42,556 nt of DNA from a virus: positions 1 through 42,556 of the IMG/VR virus record IMGVR_UViG_3300001847_000341; one strand, given 5' to 3'. Below, piece after piece: positions 1-37,227 of the stretch. The position numbers were made by a program, and so were the translations under genes. Every line of letters starts with the position of its first letter. Positions within the stretch are counted from its first letter, which is position 1. The notes below the pieces were generated by a model that searched no databases, was not told the DNA's origin, and was given only the letters and a program-made list of their open reading frames with translations.

Positions 1-1332
1 GTCGCTCGCTACGTCGCCAACTTCATCCCGCCCCTGCCCCACGCCGACTACGGCACCCTGGTAGATCCCTACCTCGGCTCCACGAGCCTGTTGATGCCGA
101 TGGAGGGGCCGAACAACAGCACGGGCTTCTTCGATCGCGCTGATCGCCTACCTGTTACGACCTACGGCAACGCCAAGATCAGCAACGCGCAGTACAAGTG
201 GGGGCTGACGAGTGCGTATTTTGATGGAAACGGGGACTATTTAACAATACCAGCGGGGACTCAGTTTGCATACGGTTCAAGCGATTTCACAATTGAGCTG
301 TGGCTCTACAAGGCCGCAAGTGGTTCGATGGCGATACTGGATAGCACCGGTTCTGGTGGCTTTGGTTTCCTTGTTAATGACACACAAGTGCAGAGCTATG
401 TAACGAACGGAGCTACATTTACAGTTGCTTATTCTATTCCTCTAAATACCTGGACGCATATTGCATATTCGCGTTCAGGAACTACTTTAAGGTTATTTGT
501 TAACGGCAGCCAGGTTGGCAGTAATACAGATAGCAATTCTTACACATCTCCCGCCGATCTAAACATTGGAAGAAATCCGAACTCCAACACGGCTTTCTTA
601 AACGGCTACATCGACGACCTCCGCATCGTCAAAGGCTTTGCCCACTACACCACCAACTTCACCCCGCCCACCGCCGCCTTCAATAGCAACTCAATTAACG
701 ATCCCTATCGGGCAAGAGTTTCGCTGCACCTGAAGATGGATGGAGTCAACAACTCAACGACGTTCACTGACAGTTCAGCAGCACCCGTAACTGTTACCGC
801 AGTTGGTGACGCGAAAATCAGCACGACCCAAGCTAAGTATGGGGGCGCGAGCGGGTACTTTGACGGAACCGGTGACTATCTGTCTTGTACACTTAACGCG
901 CTAGGTACAAACGACTTCACCATTGAAACGTGGGTCCGTATGGCATCCTTTGCGAACTATCGAATGCTATATGAAACCCGTACATCAGACGGTGATACGT
1001 CTGGTTTCGTATGGGGTGTTAACGCCAGCGGTCAGCTTTTTGTGTACCTTGGGAGTTTTGTCCTTACGACCGGAACACTTGCCACCAATACATGGTCCCA
1101 TGTAGCACTAACTCGAGCCAGTGGAACTTGGCGCATTTTTGTGGACGGGGTGCTTCAAGCAGGTACATATAGCAACTCAGTCAACCTGACAAGGACAGCT
1201 GTGCGTATAGGGATGGATTGGGCAACACTGTACGGAGCCAGCGGATACCTAGATGACTACCGGATCACCAAGGGTGTAGCTCGCTACACGGCCAACTTCC
1301 TACCGCCAACAGTTGAGCACCCTGCATTCTAA
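1..1332 (+). CDS. LamG/concanavalin-like repeat protein, virion appendage (5' end outside window)
   Basis: The frame is open from base 1, so the start lies upstream of the window. Two complete LamG-like units of about 200 residues follow the tail of a third. Each has the pattern YFDGxGDYL, then DFTIExW, then NTWxHxAxxR, then a closing GY(I/L)DDxRIxKGxAxYxxNFxPP. Such beta-sandwich domains bind glycans or proteins. In phages they usually decorate tails or fibres, so a role in host surface recognition is inferred. Bases about 220-600 and 900-1240 use clearly more A/T-ending codons than the GC-rich joints around 600-680, which suggests module exchange. A -10-like box and a new gene follow. Confidence 0.8.
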   Translation, partial: VARYVANFIPPLPHADYGTLVDPYLGSTSLLMPMEGPNNSTGFFDRADRLPVTTYGNAKISNAQYKWGLTSAYFDGNGDYLTIPAGTQFAYGSSDFTIELWLYKAASGSMAILDSTGSGGFGFLVNDTQVQSYVTNGATFTVAYSIPLNTWTHIAYSRSGTTLRLFVNGSQVGSNTDSNSYTSPADLNIGRNPNSNTAFLNGYIDDLRIVKGFAHYTTNFTPPTAAFNSNSINDPYRARVSLHLKMDGVNNSTTFTDSSAAPVTVTAVGDAKISTTQAKYGGASGYFDGTGDYLSCTLNALGTNDFTIETWVRMASFANYRMLYETRTSDGDTSGFVWGVNASGQLFVYLGSFVLTTGTLATNTWSHVALTRASGTWRIFVDGVLQAGTYSNSVNLTRTAVRIGMDWATLYGASGYLDDYRITKGVARYTANFLPPTVEHPAF

Positions 1333-30988: not shown

Positions 30989-31140
30989 TGGCAAAACCCA
31001 GCCCTACCGGTCTCGCTCTTCACATCCATCGGGATGGCCATACTATGGGAGACCGCAACAAGCGCACCTCGATCGGCAATGGTCCTCGCAAGCGCGGATC
31101 CCTGAAGCAGTCGAAGAAGTACAAGGGTCAAGGCCGGTAA
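30988..31140 (+). CDS. Tiny basic protein
   Basis: This has 50 residues. The second half GDRNKRTSIGNGPRKRGSLK then KKYKGQGR is almost entirely basic and Gly-rich. It recalls tiny basic proteins in cyanophage genomes (from memory, not searched). It may start internally at ATG 31045. It is coupled to both neighbours by TAATG overlaps. Confidence 0.6.
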   Translation: MAKPSPTGLALHIHRDGHTMGDRNKRTSIGNGPRKRGSLKQSKKYKGQGR

Positions 31141-31316
31141 TGCTTGCTCCTTATCAATCATTTCATCGCTTAATGCTCATGGCCTGCAACAAACCAGAAA
31201 ATCTGCGCTGTCCCAAGTGCAAAACCGAAACCAAAGAAGACCAAAGCACTAAGGCTTTCCGTGAATTTGTCGAGTCTAATCCCACTGCCTCTGAGGCTAA
31301 GGTCTACGATGTTTGA
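31140..31316 (+). CDS. Hypothetical small protein with CxxC
   Basis: The 58 residues start in a TAATG overlap. CPKCKTE near the middle gives a single CxxC, and Cys16 and Cys24 could add to a zinc knuckle. The C-terminal half is helical and acidic. It ends inside the next gene's first codons (ATGTTTGA). Identification is modest and rests mainly on exact packing between neighbours. Confidence 0.45.
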   Translation: MLAPYQSFHRLMLMACNKPENLRCPKCKTETKEDQSTKAFREFVESNPTASEAKVYDV

Positions 31317-31491
31317 GTTCAATTTTGCTAAGCCCAAGCTTTTCAAGGTTCTCTATAAGCTAAAGGGTAGTTCCTTTGTTGTTTCTGTGCTAGTAGCCGC
31401 AAGCAGTATCTATGAAGCTAATCGAAAGTTTGATAGGCTGTATTCGGAACAATACATTCGAGTTCCAGACACAACGAGCCAGGTTAAGTGA
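31309..31491 (+). CDS. Hypothetical small protein with one hydrophobic helix
   Basis: This encodes 60 residues. FEFNFAKPKLFKVLYKLKGS is basic and amphipathic, then FVVSVLVAASSIYEA is hydrophobic, then a polar tail. It could be peripheral to the membrane. It overlaps the gene before by 8 bases and the M23 gene by four. Function is unknown. Confidence 0.5.
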   Translation: MFEFNFAKPKLFKVLYKLKGSSFVVSVLVAASSIYEANRKFDRLYSEQYIRVPDTTSQVK

Positions 31492-31793
31492 TTCCAGTCG
31501 CCGGCCCGGTAATTCAGCATTCCTCGTCTAGGCACCCGGCCGTCGACATTGCCTGCGTAATCGGGTCTCCTGTTCGTGCTATGGCCAATGGTCATGGCAC
31601 TTTTCATTGGGACGATGACATGGGGTGGGTATTCGCCCAGGGAGATACCTCCATCAGTCACCTGGCCCATCGCGGCATCGACGGCTTCTACAGCGTTGGA
31701 GAGGTGATCTCCTCCTGTGGATCAACTGGGCGCCTGTCGGCAGGACCTCATGTCCATGTAGCAGGACCACCATCGGTGCTTCAGCGTTTCTGA
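31488..31793 (+). CDS. M23/LytM-type zinc endopeptidase, minimal
   Basis: The 101-residue protein from GTG contains the whole M23 zinc site: HPAVD (His16, Asp20), the SHLAH region (His58) and PHVHVA (His88, His90). The fold markers GSPVRAMANG, VGEVISSCGSTGRLSAG are also present. M23 enzymes cut peptide bridges in peptidoglycan. It has no signal peptide and is smaller than most relatives (about 120 for the bare domain). It could act in lysis or in the virion. A strong terminator follows. Confidence 0.8.
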   Translation: MIPVAGPVIQHSSSRHPAVDIACVIGSPVRAMANGHGTFHWDDDMGWVFAQGDTSISHLAHRGIDGFYSVGEVISSCGSTGRLSAGPHVHVAGPPSVLQRF

Positions 31794-31805
31794 ATGTTAA
31801 CAGAA

Positions 31806-31826
31806 GGGGCTCCGGCCCCTTTTTTT
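31806..31826 (+). terminator. Terminator before reductase
   Basis: GGGGC-TCCG-GCCCC stem-loop and seven T, the same sequence plan as at 19185. Confidence 0.85.
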
Positions 31827-31828
31827 GC

Positions 31829-31837
31829 TGGTAGACT
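31829..31837 (+). promoter_or_regulatory. Extended -10 promoter for reductase
   Basis: TGG-TAGACT two bases after the terminator T-run, 44 nt before ATG. The reductase is thus its own transcription unit. Confidence 0.55.
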
Positions 31838-31880
31838 GGTGGAGCCGAAAGGCATCCTAACCCTGCGTCTCTAAACCAAT

Positions 31881-34800
31881 ATGACCGAATTCCGTCCATC
31901 AGCCCCTTCCGCCGAAGCCGTATTCCTTCGCACGTACAGCCGGAGAAAGGCCGACGGTTCTCGGGAGAACTTCGAAGAGGCGATGCTCCGCACTATTGGC
32001 GACATCGCTCGCATCGGCAAGCTTGACCGGGACGAGTACGACCTGATCCTCGAGCAAGCCCTGGCTCAGCACTCCTTCCCTTCTGGCCGCGCCTTCTGGG
32101 TAGCTGGAACCGAGTGGGGTAAGAAGCCTGAGAACTTCTCCGGGTATTACAACTGCACATCAACCCACATCTCCGACATCGAAGCCTTTGGTCTGCTGGT
32201 CGACCTGGCTATGCAAGGCTCTGGTACCGGAGCGGTGCTTGAGAGCGATGTTGTAGCCGTTCTGCCTCCGGTCCTCAACAAGATTGAAGTCGTTGGCGTC
32301 TCAGGTATTGGCAAAAAACCGGGTCGAGCTAATACTACTTTTTACTGGGCCGACGCCGAGCTGTTCATCCAGGTTGGCGACTCTCGCCAAGGCTGGGTCG
32401 ATGCCTACATGAAGCTGATCGAGGTTGCAACCCTTCCTGGTAGTGGCCTCGTTAAGGTACACGTCATTCTTGACCAGGTTCGCCCTGCCGGCGAGCGTCT
32501 GAAGGGCTTTGGCGGCACCGCCAACCCGATCAAGCTTGGCGACATGTTCAAGAAGGTGGCAGCCCTGCTCTCGAAGGCCCAGGGCCGCAAGCTGACCACA
32601 GTCGAAGCCTGCCTACTCATCGACGAGGCCGCAGCCTGTATCGTGGCCGGCAACATCCGCCGCAGCGCCGGCATGCGTCAGTTCAGCAAGACCGACCAGG
32701 AGGCCGCCACTGCCAAGCTTGGCCTGTACTCACAGGACGAAGAAGGCAACTGGCGTGTTGACCCGGCCAAGGAAGCCCTGCGCATGGCCAACCACACCCG
32801 CTGCTACCATACCAAGCCTTCCTACAAGGAGGTTGAGGAGGCAGTGCGGATGCAATTCCAGAGCGGTGAGGGCGCCATCCAGTACGTCCCTGAGGCGATT
32901 GCCCGTGCGAACGCTGACGTGCTCACATGGGCCGGCCGTGATCGCTTCCTGGTTGCCTATGAGACATTCGGCCGCAAAGCTGCCAGGGATCAGCTTGAGA
33001 AAGAAGCCCGTGAGCTCGGTATTAAGCTGAGCAAGCGCGAACTGCGGCACCGTATGGATCGCTACGGCCTCAACCCCTGCCTGACTGGGGACACGCCAAT
33101 CCTGACCGTTCACCAAGGTGTCAAAACCTTTGAGGAGCTGGTCGAGAGTGGAGAGGACGTGCTCGTCTGGTGTGTCAACAAGGAGACGAACGAGGCTGCC
33201 GTGCGGATGATGCGCAGCCCCCGCGTAACTGGCTATAATCAGCCAGTGCTGGAGGTCGAGTTTGACAGTGGCCTGAAGGTGCGAGCCACGCATAACCACA
33301 ACTTCTTCACCCTGCAGCGCAACAAGGTCCAAGCCAAGGACCTCAAGGTTGGACAGTCCGTCTCAGCCTTTGCTATCCACCAGCATCGTGATGGTCACTT
33401 GCGAATCACTCGCAACAACAAGCAAGCTGATTCTGTCCGCCAGCAGTTCTGCCATCGGGTGATTGCCGATTACTATGGTATTTCTGGAGAGGTTATCCAC
33501 CACGTTGATGGGAACCCGGTGAACAACCTGCCCCAGAATCTGGAGGCGACTACCCACGTTGAGCACAATCGGGAGCACTACGGTAACCGTTGCCGCAACG
33601 GTTTCTACCACGGGTCTCCCGGCCCCGCTGCCGCCGAGCACATTGCGAATCACAAGGTTGTGGCCATCCGAGACGCGGGCACGGCGACCGTTTACAACGG
33701 AACAGTCGATGAGCATCACAACTACGTGGTGGTGGATCCGTCTTCTGTTGGCAAGAGCTACGTCTCGGGCATCCTCTCCGCCAACTGTGGCGAGATTATC
33801 GGCCGCGACTTCCACTGCAACCTGGCAGAGGTGCATCTGAACACCCTGGACCCCAACGACTTCCAGGGCCTGTACGACGCCTTCTATGCCGCTGGCCTAC
33901 AGGTGGCCTCCCTGCTGCAGCACAAGTTCGTACATGAGCGGTATCAGTACAGCCGTGAGATCGATCCGATTGTTGGCGTCAGCTTCACTGGCCTGTTCGA
34001 CTTCTATGTCCACGCCTTCGGGGCTGGCTGGCTGAAGTGGAATATGGAGGGTCGTCCCGAGTCCGATCGCTATGCCGATAAGTACACGGGCGCCGAGCAG
34101 TCGTACCTTATGCGCTTCCGTTTGGCCGCCCACGACGCTGTCGACGACTACTGCACAAAGCATGGCATCCGACTGCCCAACCGGATCACCACCGTTCAAC
34201 CCGCTGGTACCAAGAGCCTGCTCACAGGCGCTTCCAGTGGCTGGCACCCGCCCAAGGCCCAGCGCTTCATCCGTCGCATCACCCTAGGCGTTAAGGACCC
34301 CCTGGTGCCCGCTCTGATCGAGTACGGCTACAAGGTGATCCCTGCCCAGTCTGCCCGCGATGAGCATGGCAACCTGCTGGACGACATCACTGATCCTCGC
34401 GTTCAGGAAGTACTCGTCGAGATTCCCACCTCCGTGTCCTGGGCTGACCTACCTGGCTGCGATGAGTACGATCTGAGCAAGCTGCCCGTCACAGCCCAGT
34501 GGGGGATCTATATGAATGTGCAGAACTTCTACACGGACCACAACACTTCCGCAACCATCGAGTTGCGTGAAGAGGAGATCCCCGTGCTCTCCAAGCTGAT
34601 CTACGACAACATTGTGAACGATGGTGGCTACATCTCGGCCGCTCTGTTGGCCCGGTTTGATGCAAACGAGACCTTCCCTCGCTTGCCGTTTGAACCCATC
34701 TCCAGGGAGGAGTATGATCGCCAAATCCTACCCCGCAAGGTTGTCGAGATGACTGATGACCGCTCCCTGCTTGATATACTGAACAAGTATGACAGTAGCG

Positions 34801-34886
34801 AGTGGACTATTGAGAGTGTTGCAGGATGCACCAACGCGGCCTGCATCGCCAAGGCTGAAGCCGACGAACGCGAAGGCAAGGCTTGA
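31881..34886 (+). CDS. Class II (B12-dependent) ribonucleoside-triphosphate reductase with intein
   Basis: The 1001-residue precursor becomes 765 after removal of a 236-residue intein (400-635), close to monomeric class II enzymes. It reduces ribonucleotides using adenosylcobalamin. Cysteine landmarks are present: Cys92 (YYNCTSTH), the radical Cys636 in NP/CGE across the splice junction, Cys646 (DFHCNLAE), and the C-terminal pair Cys983/Cys988 (CTNAAC) that receives electrons from a thioredoxin or glutaredoxin. GSGTGAVLES and QPAGTKSLLTG are the substrate-phosphate and loop motifs. The glutaredoxin at 29450 is a likely partner. It has a dedicated promoter and terminators on both sides. Confidence 0.93.
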   Translation: MTEFRPSAPSAEAVFLRTYSRRKADGSRENFEEAMLRTIGDIARIGKLDRDEYDLILEQALAQHSFPSGRAFWVAGTEWGKKPENFSGYYNCTSTHISDIEAFGLLVDLAMQGSGTGAVLESDVVAVLPPVLNKIEVVGVSGIGKKPGRANTTFYWADAELFIQVGDSRQGWVDAYMKLIEVATLPGSGLVKVHVILDQVRPAGERLKGFGGTANPIKLGDMFKKVAALLSKAQGRKLTTVEACLLIDEAAACIVAGNIRRSAGMRQFSKTDQEAATAKLGLYSQDEEGNWRVDPAKEALRMANHTRCYHTKPSYKEVEEAVRMQFQSGEGAIQYVPEAIARANADVLTWAGRDRFLVAYETFGRKAARDQLEKEARELGIKLSKRELRHRMDRYGLNPCLTGDTPILTVHQGVKTFEELVESGEDVLVWCVNKETNEAAVRMMRSPRVTGYNQPVLEVEFDSGLKVRATHNHNFFTLQRNKVQAKDLKVGQSVSAFAIHQHRDGHLRITRNNKQADSVRQQFCHRVIADYYGISGEVIHHVDGNPVNNLPQNLEATTHVEHNREHYGNRCRNGFYHGSPGPAAAEHIANHKVVAIRDAGTATVYNGTVDEHHNYVVVDPSSVGKSYVSGILSANCGEIIGRDFHCNLAEVHLNTLDPNDFQGLYDAFYAAGLQVASLLQHKFVHERYQYSREIDPIVGVSFTGLFDFYVHAFGAGWLKWNMEGRPESDRYADKYTGAEQSYLMRFRLAAHDAVDDYCTKHGIRLPNRITTVQPAGTKSLLTGASSGWHPPKAQRFIRRITLGVKDPLVPALIEYGYKVIPAQSARDEHGNLLDDITDPRVQEVLVEIPTSVSWADLPGCDEYDLSKLPVTAQWGIYMNVQNFYTDHNTSATIELREEEIPVLSKLIYDNIVNDGGYISAALLARFDANETFPRLPFEPISREEYDRQILPRKVVEMTDDRSLLDILNKYDSSEWTIESVAGCTNAACIAKAEADEREGKA
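33078..33785 (+). mobile_element. HNH-containing intein inside the reductase
   Basis: The intein (236 residues) begins with Cys400 in CLTGDTPIL (block A). It has TxxH in RATHNHNFF (block B) and ends VDEHHNYVV then GILSAN before +1 Cys636 (blocks F/G). The penultimate residue is Ala instead of the usual His. A homing-type HNH nuclease lies inside: HHVDGNPVNNLPQNLEATTH followed by VEHNREH. Insertion is exactly at the catalytic Cys, a site known for reductase inteins. It could cut intein-free reductase alleles in co-infecting phages. Confidence 0.9.
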
Positions 34887-34893
34887 TCACCTA

Positions 34894-34912
34894 GGGGGCC
34901 CCGGCCCCCTTT
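34894..34912 (+). terminator. Terminator after reductase
   Basis: GGGGG, six-base CCCCGG centre, CCCCC, then three T followed by C-T. GC-rich but with a short T-run. Confidence 0.65.
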
Positions 34913-34930
34913 CTATTCCCCTGAGGTAGT

Positions 34931-35113
34931 ATGAATGAACTAGAGAAGGCTCTTGAGGAGTTTCAGAATCGCTATAGGTTCTACCTCGAAAAGGTAGACC
35001 GACGCTACAAGCAGCTCGGAGACAACGACTACGACGTCGTACAGGCTGCCTGGAGTCGGTACCTCAAGCTTCGCAAGGCTCGGCAAACCACCAAGAAAGG
35101 AGCAACAGAGTAA
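34931..35113 (+). CDS. Hypothetical small helical protein
   Basis: This 60-residue protein is strongly helical and charged (NELEKALEEFQNRYRFYLE, later RYLKLRKARQTTKKG). GAGG four bases before ATG serves as ribosome site. Its stop overlaps the deaminase ATG by TAATG. Function is unknown. Confidence 0.6.
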   Translation: MNELEKALEEFQNRYRFYLEKVDRRYKQLGDNDYDVVQAAWSRYLKLRKARQTTKKGATE

Positions 35114-35607
35114 TGGCCACAATTGTCGACTTTCAGATCGAAGCCCTGGGCCAGCATGGCCTAATCCAGCCATTCCGTCGCCAGCAGGTCAACCCGGCTA
35201 GTTACGATGTAACACTCGGCCCCAAGATTCTTGTCGAGGAGCGCGAGGGATGGAGGGAAGTCGATATTTCGATCCCGGGGTTTGAGATGATGCCCGGAGC
35301 CTTCATCCTGGCCCATACCGCCGAGGTCATCAATGTTCCCGACCACCTAGAGTGCATCTTTCAACTGAAGAGCAGCCGAGGCCGCGAAGGCTACGAGCAT
35401 GCCCTGGCCGGGTACATTGATCCAGGCTTCAGTGGGCAAGTGACACTCGAGCTTACCAACCTGAATCGCTACCACTGGCTTCCGCTGGAGGCTGGAATGC
35501 GGATCGGCCAGCTTCGGTTCTCTCGGGTAGACGAAACCCCTCTCCGCCCCTACGGCGTAACCGGTCGCTACAACCGGGACATGGGAGTGGTGCCCAGCAA
35601 GGGGTGA
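35113..35607 (+). CDS. dcd: dCTP deaminase / dUTPase-family protein
   Basis: The 164-residue protein follows the dCTP deaminase/dUTPase fold: VNPASYDVTLGPK, then LKSSRGREGYEHALAGYIDP and GFSGQVTLELTNL. dCTP deaminases have this SSxxRxG...AGxIDPGFxGxxTLEL arrangement and make dUTP, which a dUTPase converts to dUMP for ThyX. Whether it is monofunctional or also a dUTPase cannot be read here. Somewhat shorter than E. coli Dcd (193). It is coupled to the small gene before it. Confidence 0.82.
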   Translation: MATIVDFQIEALGQHGLIQPFRRQQVNPASYDVTLGPKILVEEREGWREVDISIPGFEMMPGAFILAHTAEVINVPDHLECIFQLKSSRGREGYEHALAGYIDPGFSGQVTLELTNLNRYHWLPLEAGMRIGQLRFSRVDETPLRPYGVTGRYNRDMGVVPSKG

Positions 35608-35638
35608 CGGAAACCTACTAGATGAGCGGTTGCGTGAC

Positions 35639-35663
35639 GCGCCGGTCTATCAAGTCCCGGCGC
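35639..35663 (+). other. Stable GC hairpin before portal
   Basis: GCGCCGG (35639-35645) and CCGGCGC (35657-35663) form a 7-bp stem with an 11-base loop and no T-run. It lies 25 bases before the portal ATG, which has no visible ribosome site. Confidence 0.5.
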
Positions 35664-35688
35664 GACGCCACCATTCGCAGCGACTGCA

Positions 35689-37227
35689 ATGCCCCAAGGA
35701 ATCTCTCACCCGATCAACGACCCCTCTCTGGTGTCGTATCACCGCCCAGAGCTTGTGCGACTGCTCCCGCAACTCGAGTTAGCTGACGATTGCTGGACTC
35801 TCTTGAACGGAGACGGCCAAGGCGAGGCCAAGGTGAAGTACTTGCCCAAGGAGCCTGCCGAGCCTCATGCGGCCTACTTGTCACGCCTTGGCCGTGCAAC
35901 CTACGCCCCGATCTACCGCGACTCCATCCGCTCCTATGCGGGCCTGCTGAGCCGCTTCCAGCTGATTGATGCCCCTGCCAGCATGATGGCGGCGCAGTCA
36001 GACGTGGACCTCCAGGGCTCCAGCATGCAGAGCTTTATGACACTCTGTGATGAGACCGCCCTACGCGATGGCGGGACGTTCATCATGGTTGACATGATGC
36101 CCGAGGCTGGCGCCAACAACTTCTTTGATCAGATGAACGATGGTCGCAAGCCGTACCTGATCAACATCCAGCGCACTGACGTCATCAACTGGAACGTGCG
36201 CTATGACATGGGTCGTGAGGTACTTGAGCGGGTAACTATTCGACAACTGCGTAGCATACAGGATCCCGAAAACGCCTTCGGTTCGATCGTTGAGCCGATC
36301 TACTACGTGCTGACTCCTGGTAAGGTTGAAAGCTATCGACTGGTTAAGGAGGCCACGAGCCGTTGGGCAAACCAGAAGATTGACGAGATCAACACCACCC
36401 TTCCGGTTATCCCCGTGGTATGGTATGGCGCCACGACCAGCCGCTTCGCCCAGGGCGATCTGCCTCTTGCTGGCCTGGCCGACCTGAGCATCCAGCATTT
36501 CCAGATGCGGTCAGACCTGGCCGAGTTACTGCACAAGTGCGCAATGCCAGTGCCCGTCCGCAAGGGCGCCCCTATCGGCCCTGATGGTCAACCTGCGCCG
36601 TTGGTGCTGGGCCCGAACACTGCTGTCGACCTGTCCGCCGAAGCCGGCAGCGGTTTCTCCTTTGCTGAGCCGAGCGGCAAGAGTCTGGAGCGCCACCAGA
36701 GCGAGATCGAGCACGTCGAGATGCTCATGGACCGTAGCTCCCTGAACTTCTTGTACGGGGCGAACATCAAGACAGCCACCGAGGCGTCCCTCCGGGCTTC
36801 TCAGGTGGCCTCTAGCGTGGCCGCCCTGGTCCGCAACAAGTCGAGCATGTTCTCGATGCTCATGAAACTCTGGGCCTGGTATGCTGGCGAAGTTGACCAG
36901 ATCACCAAGGAGTCGGGCATCGCAATCAACGACTCGCTGATCAACAAGCCGTTGGGCGCCTCGGAGATGGCTCAGCTCGTCAACCTGCATTCCAGTGGCC
37001 TGTTGTCCAAGCAGACCGTCCTCGACGAACTGCAGCGTGGTGGCGTACTCGATCCGGACATGGTAATCGAGGAGGAGGTGGCCAGAATCGAGGAGGACAA
37101 GCAGGCCGCTCTGGCCGACGCTCAGAAGGCTGCAGAGGCCATGCCGCAACAGCCTTCGGCACCTGCTGGCCCTCCACCGAAAACGGAGCAGCAGAAAACG
37201 GCTCAAGCCGCCAAGGTTGCGAAATGA
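35689..37227 (+). CDS. Portal protein, DUF4055-like
   Basis: This 512-residue protein has the portal layout: a core with YRDSIRSYAGLLSRFQL and FMTLCDETALRDGGTFIMVD near residues 78-150, then PYLINIQRTDVINWNVRYD, and PVIPVVWYGATTSR. It continues with QHFQMRSDLAELLHKCAMPV and the helical ATEASLRASQVASSVAALVR that matches the portal stem/wing, and ends in a Gln/Pro/Ala-rich disordered tail. It forms the dodecameric DNA gate and docking ring for the terminase. It lies about 10 kb from the terminase genes and far from the capsid genes, which is unusual. A terminator follows. Confidence 0.85.
   Translation: MPQGISHPINDPSLVSYHRPELVRLLPQLELADDCWTLLNGDGQGEAKVKYLPKEPAEPHAAYLSRLGRATYAPIYRDSIRSYAGLLSRFQLIDAPASMMAAQSDVDLQGSSMQSFMTLCDETALRDGGTFIMVDMMPEAGANNFFDQMNDGRKPYLINIQRTDVINWNVRYDMGREVLERVTIRQLRSIQDPENAFGSIVEPIYYVLTPGKVESYRLVKEATSRWANQKIDEINTTLPVIPVVWYGATTSRFAQGDLPLAGLADLSIQHFQMRSDLAELLHKCAMPVPVRKGAPIGPDGQPAPLVLGPNTAVDLSAEAGSGFSFAEPSGKSLERHQSEIEHVEMLMDRSSLNFLYGANIKTATEASLRASQVASSVAALVRNKSSMFSMLMKLWAWYAGEVDQITKESGIAINDSLINKPLGASEMAQLVNLHSSGLLSKQTVLDELQRGGVLDPDMVIEEEVARIEEDKQAALADAQKAAEAMPQQPSAPAGPPPKTEQQKTAQAAKVAK

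Follow-up and report, generated by a model that had tools for sequence, protein, structure and literature searches.

The intein and its host gene

The DNA analyzed here, hereafter the window, is a virus record of 42,556 bases. Its plus strand carries an open reading frame of 1001 aa (31881..34886) that encodes the precursor of a class II, RTPR-type, adenosylcobalamin-dependent ribonucleotide reductase (RNR), intein included. Both a profile-search match to the corresponding family (TIGR02505, E = 8.8e-174) and the catalytic motif NPCGE, read across the intein junction, place the enzyme in this class. The N-extein (31881..33077, plus strand, 399 aa) ends in YGLNP, and the C-extein (33786..34883, plus strand) begins CGEIIGRDFHCNL. 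A primase and an exonuclease lie upstream of the reductase gene, and a dCTP deaminase and a portal protein downstream. Among named phages, Synechococcus phage S-CBS2 comes closest (79.7% DNA identity over 35% of a 14.6-kb query). It shares the gene order of RNR followed by dCTP deaminase, and its reductase is 79% identical to the window exteins at the amino acid level; the window virus is an S-CBS2-like cyanophage. An Rfam search of positions 31000-36000 matched no RNA element.

The intein itself (33078..33785; this and all features below are on the plus strand) consists of a class-1 splicing domain into which an HNH domain is inserted. It is 236 aa long (CLTGD...GILSAN) and occupies codons 400-635 of the reading frame, in frame and free of stops. 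Pfam Intein_splicing (PF14890, E = 2.3e-15) and HNH_3 (E = 1.2e-6) both match it, in agreement with the HNH intein proposed in the initial annotation, and NCBIfam intein_Nterm matches from residue 1 (E = 2.4e-9). The intein_Cterm profile reached only 14.3 bits (cut-off 15.6), its match ending at residue 218, ahead of an extension of about 10 aa between blocks F and G. Cys1, the first nucleophile (block A, 33078..33080), was located from the intein_Nterm match and the alignment, which also defines block B, RATHNHNF (33282..33305), with T71 and H74 of the TxxH motif; H74 is unchanged across all 12 aligned inteins. The HNH_3 homing endonuclease domain spans intein residues 126-165 (33453..33572) and has an intact IHHVDGNPVNN. 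In the alignment, block F, VYNGTVDEHHNY (33690..33725), contains Asn207 at position F:4 together with H213 and H214, and the following F-G segment (33726..33767) exceeds that of relatives at other sites by some 10 aa. Block G, GILSAN (33768..33785), provides the penultimate Ala235 and the cyclising Asn236.

A Hint-type fold, C1, C+1, T71 and H74 in block B and the terminal N236 assign the intein to class 1. The penultimate residue is Ala235 where His is usual in this class, and F:4, overlooked in the initial annotation, is Asn207 where Asp, Cys or Trp is commonest, but neither usual residue is required for membership. A class-3 intein, which would lack Cys1 and have Cys at F:4, is ruled out by the presence of C1 and of Asn at F:4. 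With its HNH domain nested in the splicing domain (HNH_3 28.5 bits, cut-off 24.8), it is an HNH homing-endonuclease intein. HNH_3 scores 40.4 bits in the relative L003 and falls short of the cut-off in L005 (18.2 bits), which has Arg in place of the second His of IHH. The lineage thus appears, from these sequences, to hold both intact and eroding endonucleases, as expected in a homing cycle.

An AlphaFold2 model of the intein, built from 12 sequences, had a mean pLDDT of 79.1 and a pTM of 0.77, with residues 176-193 under 50. Its best structural match was NrdJ-1 (8ubs; Z 18.8, rmsd 1.9, 144 aligned residues), which differs from the window intein in being a 150-residue split-intein fusion, too short for an HNH domain, with 22% identity. 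Npu DnaE (4kl5; Z 17.6, rmsd 1.9, 140 aligned) and Ssp DnaE (1zd7; Z 17.1, rmsd 2.6, 151 aligned, model 6..241 to chain 1..159) followed. Model residue 241, equivalent to N236, falls at the ends of these known inteins, and the modeled fold thus agrees with GILSAN/C as the true intein end, where the initial annotation had placed it. We rejected a different C-terminal block ending in the usual His-Asn, as there was no in-frame candidate and the fold comparison terminates at N236.

Insertion at a catalytic cysteine

The intein sits between NP and CGE, and its +1 Cys aligns to C408 of the L. leichmannii RTPR (1L1L; counted by hand); the next conserved Cys in this alignment, 419, has its equivalent at 33816-33818 in the C-extein. 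We take C408 of 1L1L to be the thiyl-radical cysteine, and on that assumption the earlier proposal that the +1 residue is the catalytic cysteine holds. The S-CBS2 reductase is intein-free and differs from the window flanks at three of 66 bases around the site. A search with the exteins returned 33 related viral loci, two of which (L020, L041) end before the site. Among the 31 readable loci, NP/C is empty in 25, the intein-free alleles for which the initial annotation had advised a screen, and occupied in six: L009, L014 and L015 by inteins of the window type (on the same contigs as L002, L003 and L004, discussed below) and L031, L032 and L038 by other types.

Homing elements usually target conserved codons, so inteins at RNR catalytic cysteines need no regulatory explanation. 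Other cysteines of this cyanophage reductase family are used as well: an intein in L028 (5270-6250; end TLTGQ/C) precedes the C419 equivalent, and inteins in L041 (4274-5164) and L035 (end LLTGN/C) precede a conserved Cys that we presume to be equivalent to C119, from its position near the end of a weak alignment and from an NC that is invariant among four aligned reductases. Each of the three catalytic RNR cysteines would then be the +1 residue of some intein, given the presumed C119 assignment; no report of this appeared among the open-access papers listed in our searches. Critical functional sites are described as frequent intein locations (PMC5874633), and in a published set of marine viral RNRs inteins were reported in only 8 of 18,717 sequences (PMC12918982).

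Further arrangements were observed in these reductases. A fourth insertion site, QPAG/S, is occupied in L005 (6129-7217), L031 (6686-7828) and L032, each of which carries two inteins per reductase gene; the intein at this site ends SHN/S, and intein-free relatives mostly read QPAGT. In Microcoleus phage My-WqHQDG (L161, 238-3123), within a gene annotated only as a hypothetical protein, a 137-aa mini-intein apparently lies one codon downstream of the NP/C position (NPC/C...VNN/CEIL). The reductase of Thermus phage TSP4 (L159, an UNVERIFIED record) is annotated as two genes with the break inside the NP/C intein; the intein may be broken, or the record may contain a frameshift.

Relatives and horizontal spread

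A search with the intein detected seven viral loci, namely L002 (100% identity), L003 and L004 (89%), L005 (74%) and three distant ones, L006, L007 and L008. Alignment-based scans picked up 10 viral loci and 3 in genomes. Scanning with the L050 intein yielded 46 loci, one of which, L094, was a new relative at the RNR site. Between the window and L003, the intein is 89% identical at the amino acid level and the exteins 67% and 77%; for L005 the values are 74%, 54% and 54%. The intein is thus conserved above the exteins in both comparisons, a pattern expected of a mobile element that fits horizontal spread, and the exteins of intein-free S-CBS2 (74% and 85%) are nearer to the window than those of either intein-bearing relative. 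The endonuclease may cut the empty allele, as such alleles and the apparent spread would indirectly suggest. The window-L003 dN/dS is 0.029, which points to purifying selection but is a rough value with dS near saturation.

The lineage also occurs elsewhere, in a DNA-polymerase-like gene (L008, penultimate Ala) and in L048, L049 and L051 (penultimate His). By our own count, 14 to 24 residues separate the aromatic residue after HN from the end in the 15 lineage inteins at RNR NP/C, compared with 9 or 10 in most other members. One of these relatives, in L050 (2734-4155), is 474 aa long and ends in Ala-Gln (VLCAQ/C), without a terminal Asn. Separately, a portal-like gene in L186 has two inteins, ending FFVKN/S and IIIKN/S, the first seemingly without the usual Cys1 start.

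Absence of the penultimate histidine

At RNR NP/C, the lineage has penultimate Ala in the window, L003, L005, L050 (before a terminal Gln), L054, L064 and L065, Leu in L006 and L053, Lys in L007 and Met in L094. Eight of these are HNH inteins (the window, L003, L005, L006, L007, L050, L053 and L094) and three are haloarchaeal mini-inteins (L054, L064, L065); in all 11, the absent His coincides with Asn or Ser at F:4. Four other haloarchaeal mini-inteins at NP/C (L066, L067, L068, L085), near those three on trees, retain the penultimate His. The same insertion point before the C408 equivalent is used by inteins of Thermus phages G20c and P23-45_stolb1, Nodularia phage kac65v162 and haloarchaea, mostly of other lineages, with penultimate Gly in the Thermus phages and His in the Nodularia phage and most haloarchaeal copies, including the longer ones. 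Other NP/C inteins are those of L031 and L032 (Gly-Gln end) and L038 (His); judged by eye from length and sequence, several of the other-lineage inteins are probably of the LAGLIDADG type. Alignment with RNR inteins, as the initial annotation had recommended, thus recovered the Ala within the lineage and a range of residues (His, Gly, Lys, Leu, Met) across the site. We rejected the idea that the C408 site dictates the penultimate residue, since Ala, Leu, Lys, Met, Gly and His all occur there; the residue tracks the intein lineage and not the catalytic site.

Absence of the penultimate His has precedents. About 5% of functional inteins are reported to lack it, and restoring His improves some and impairs others (PMC4031507). 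Mycobacteriophage inteins are described as poorly conserved at this position, a Gly-to-His change in one of them making splicing worse or slower (PMC5050341). Ssp DnaE has a natural penultimate Ala, and substituting His gave no gain in splicing (PMC12702839, citing Nichols and Evans 2004); given these published outcomes, the Ala-to-His change proposed in the initial annotation is not diagnostic alone. The Ssp and Npu DnaE inteins resemble the window intein in Hint fold, class-1 layout and lack of penultimate His (Ala in Ssp, PMC12702839; Ser in Npu, which ends IASN), but differ in being split, in having no endonuclease and in residing in DnaE, and Npu DnaE keeps Asp at F:4 (VYD). The best named-phage match to the window intein (33.5% identity over 71% of the query), and the nearest relative of proven activity that we found, is in the dCTP deaminase of Aphanizomenon phage CL131. 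Like the window intein, it is a cyanophage HNH_3 intein in a nucleotide-metabolism gene without penultimate His (it ends GVFVKN/C, that is, Lys-Asn), unlike it in host protein and site, in having Cys at F:4 and in lacking the F-G extension. When expressed in E. coli, its host protein had the spliced size, indicating self-excision (PMC6293099). The penultimate Ala is an old, tolerated trait of the lineage, unusual yet ordinary in kind.

Association between positions F:4 and G:6

Position F:4 is described as most commonly Asp, then Cys, then Trp, and in a model of the Pho RadA intein, Asp(F:4) restrains the terminal Asn until formation of the branched intermediate (PMC4031507). Across 59 inteins, a set gathered around the window's family, the combination at F:4 and the penultimate position G:6 was Asp with His in 34, Asp with non-His in 0, non-Asp with non-His in 22 and non-Asp with His in 3 (Fisher p = 2.6e-13, a value that ignores relatedness and how the set was gathered). 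Supported branches of a tree offered only five independent pairs, in which F:4 changed the same way in 4.4 on average and the opposite way in 0, and a sign test did not reach significance (p = 0.06-0.25); the tree has long branches meeting, and it puts the Nodularia intein beside L005, a placement we disbelieve. The 59 do not include duplicates and near-copies (among them L002, L004, L032, L142, L149, L150 and L187), the split TSP4 intein (Cys with Gly), five inteins whose start could not be parsed (L140, L144, L145, L147 and L153, all Asp with His), the second inteins in L095, L096 and L097, and haloarchaeal loci that were not extracted (L069, L070, L073, L074, L080 and L082).

Exceptions exist outside the set. 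An RtcB-like intein, L086, which had been left out, pairs Asp with Ser and contradicts the coupling, and Npu DnaE is a further Asp-Ser exception. Among TIGR01443 matches (66 from the phylum of G002 and the best 30 from the phylum of G001; 89 of 96 stretches parsed, at least three of them, L208, L237 and L240, misparsed), L249 and L250 pair Asp with Ser, and L239, L240, L255, L256 and L271 pair Asn with His; the remainder of both samples is mostly Asp with His. No report of the coupling appeared among the open-access papers listed in our searches. A doubled block F His was considered as a compensating trait: in a set of 47 inteins, 12 combine a residue other than His at the penultimate position with Asn, Ser or Gln at F:4, and 11 of those read HHN, but HHN also occurs together with penultimate His in L048, L049, L051, L085 and L096. 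The idea was rejected, as L094 has FHN and the tree-based pairs gave no support.

It is possible, if doubtful, that the lineage centered on the RNR C408 site, which spans phages, Bacteroidota and haloarchaea, lost an accelerator (the penultimate His) and a brake (Asp at F:4) together, and perhaps that this reflects a general rule in which inteins become independent of the penultimate His through loss of the brake and not through gain of a new helper. Losing both Asp(F:4) and His(G:6) could keep the splicing steps in balance.

How the intein is best explained

We conclude that the window holds a mobile class-1 intein with a nested HNH homing endonuclease that very probably splices and tolerates its penultimate Ala. 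Such an intein would have spread among cyanophage class II RNR genes at strongly conserved C408-equivalent codons. It would follow the standard four steps, namely an acyl shift at Cys1, transfer to the RNR Cys at +1, cyclisation of Asn236 and an S-N shift, rejoining NP to CGE in an intact enzyme. Cyclisation of Asn236 may be assisted by H214 of block F and perhaps by H213, and Asp at F:4, which in the model of one intein restrains the terminal Asn, is replaced by Asn. We infer splicing, cutting by the endonuclease and the identity of the compensating residues; sequence association and published models suggest the compensation. The initial annotation reasoned that Ala would need another residue to assist cyclisation: the Ala stands and H214 is available, whereas an explanation specific to this protein is unnecessary when some 5% of functional inteins manage without the His.

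The same annotation raised the possibility that splicing acts as a switch. In a conditional form of this reading, slow or redox-sensitive splicing, owing to the missing His and a C408-equivalent +1 residue, would leave the reductase inactive up to some point in the infection. The position of the +1 Cys and the frequency of inteins at critical sites (PMC5874633) speak for this idea, and precursor build-up in a mycobacteriophage intein varied with the penultimate residue, leading its authors to suggest tuned phage splicing (PMC5050341). In that study, however, the slow form was the His version, and Ssp DnaE is not slower with Ala than with His (PMC12702839). The 25 readable relatives with an empty NP/C site manage without an intein, the same site hosts inteins with penultimate His, Gly and other residues, and we found no sensor, regulator or condition-dependence. 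A switch is therefore improbable.

Slightly less likely still is a dead or decaying intein, in which loss of His(G:6) and Asp(F:4) has abolished splicing and left the reductase non-functional. Two usual assisting residues are indeed replaced and intein_Cterm falls below its cut-off, but the splicing part is under strong purifying selection (window-L003 dN/dS 0.016, with dS near saturation), Cys1, T71, H74, H214, N236 and Cys+1 are all retained, the exteins are well conserved relative to S-CBS2, and the same replacements occur in open-frame relatives from phages, Saprospiraceae and Halobacteriales. An assembly or recombination artefact, conceivable since the 42.6-kb virus record belongs to a metagenome-type collection, can be practically dismissed, as the same junctions recur in other contigs (L002, identical in the intein; L003, L004 and L005).

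The mobile, splicing intein favored here is one of several phage inteins whose splicing nucleophile is the C408-equivalent Cys of class II RNR. Its insertion site is striking, though of a known kind, and assigning the odd penultimate residue to the intein lineage removes the tempting account of a switch. The association between F:4 and G:6 is the one lead worth testing, and haloarchaeal mini-inteins at a single site, with either Asn and Ala or Asp and His, offer natural pairs for studying how Asp(F:4) and His(G:6) may cooperate in Asn cyclisation.
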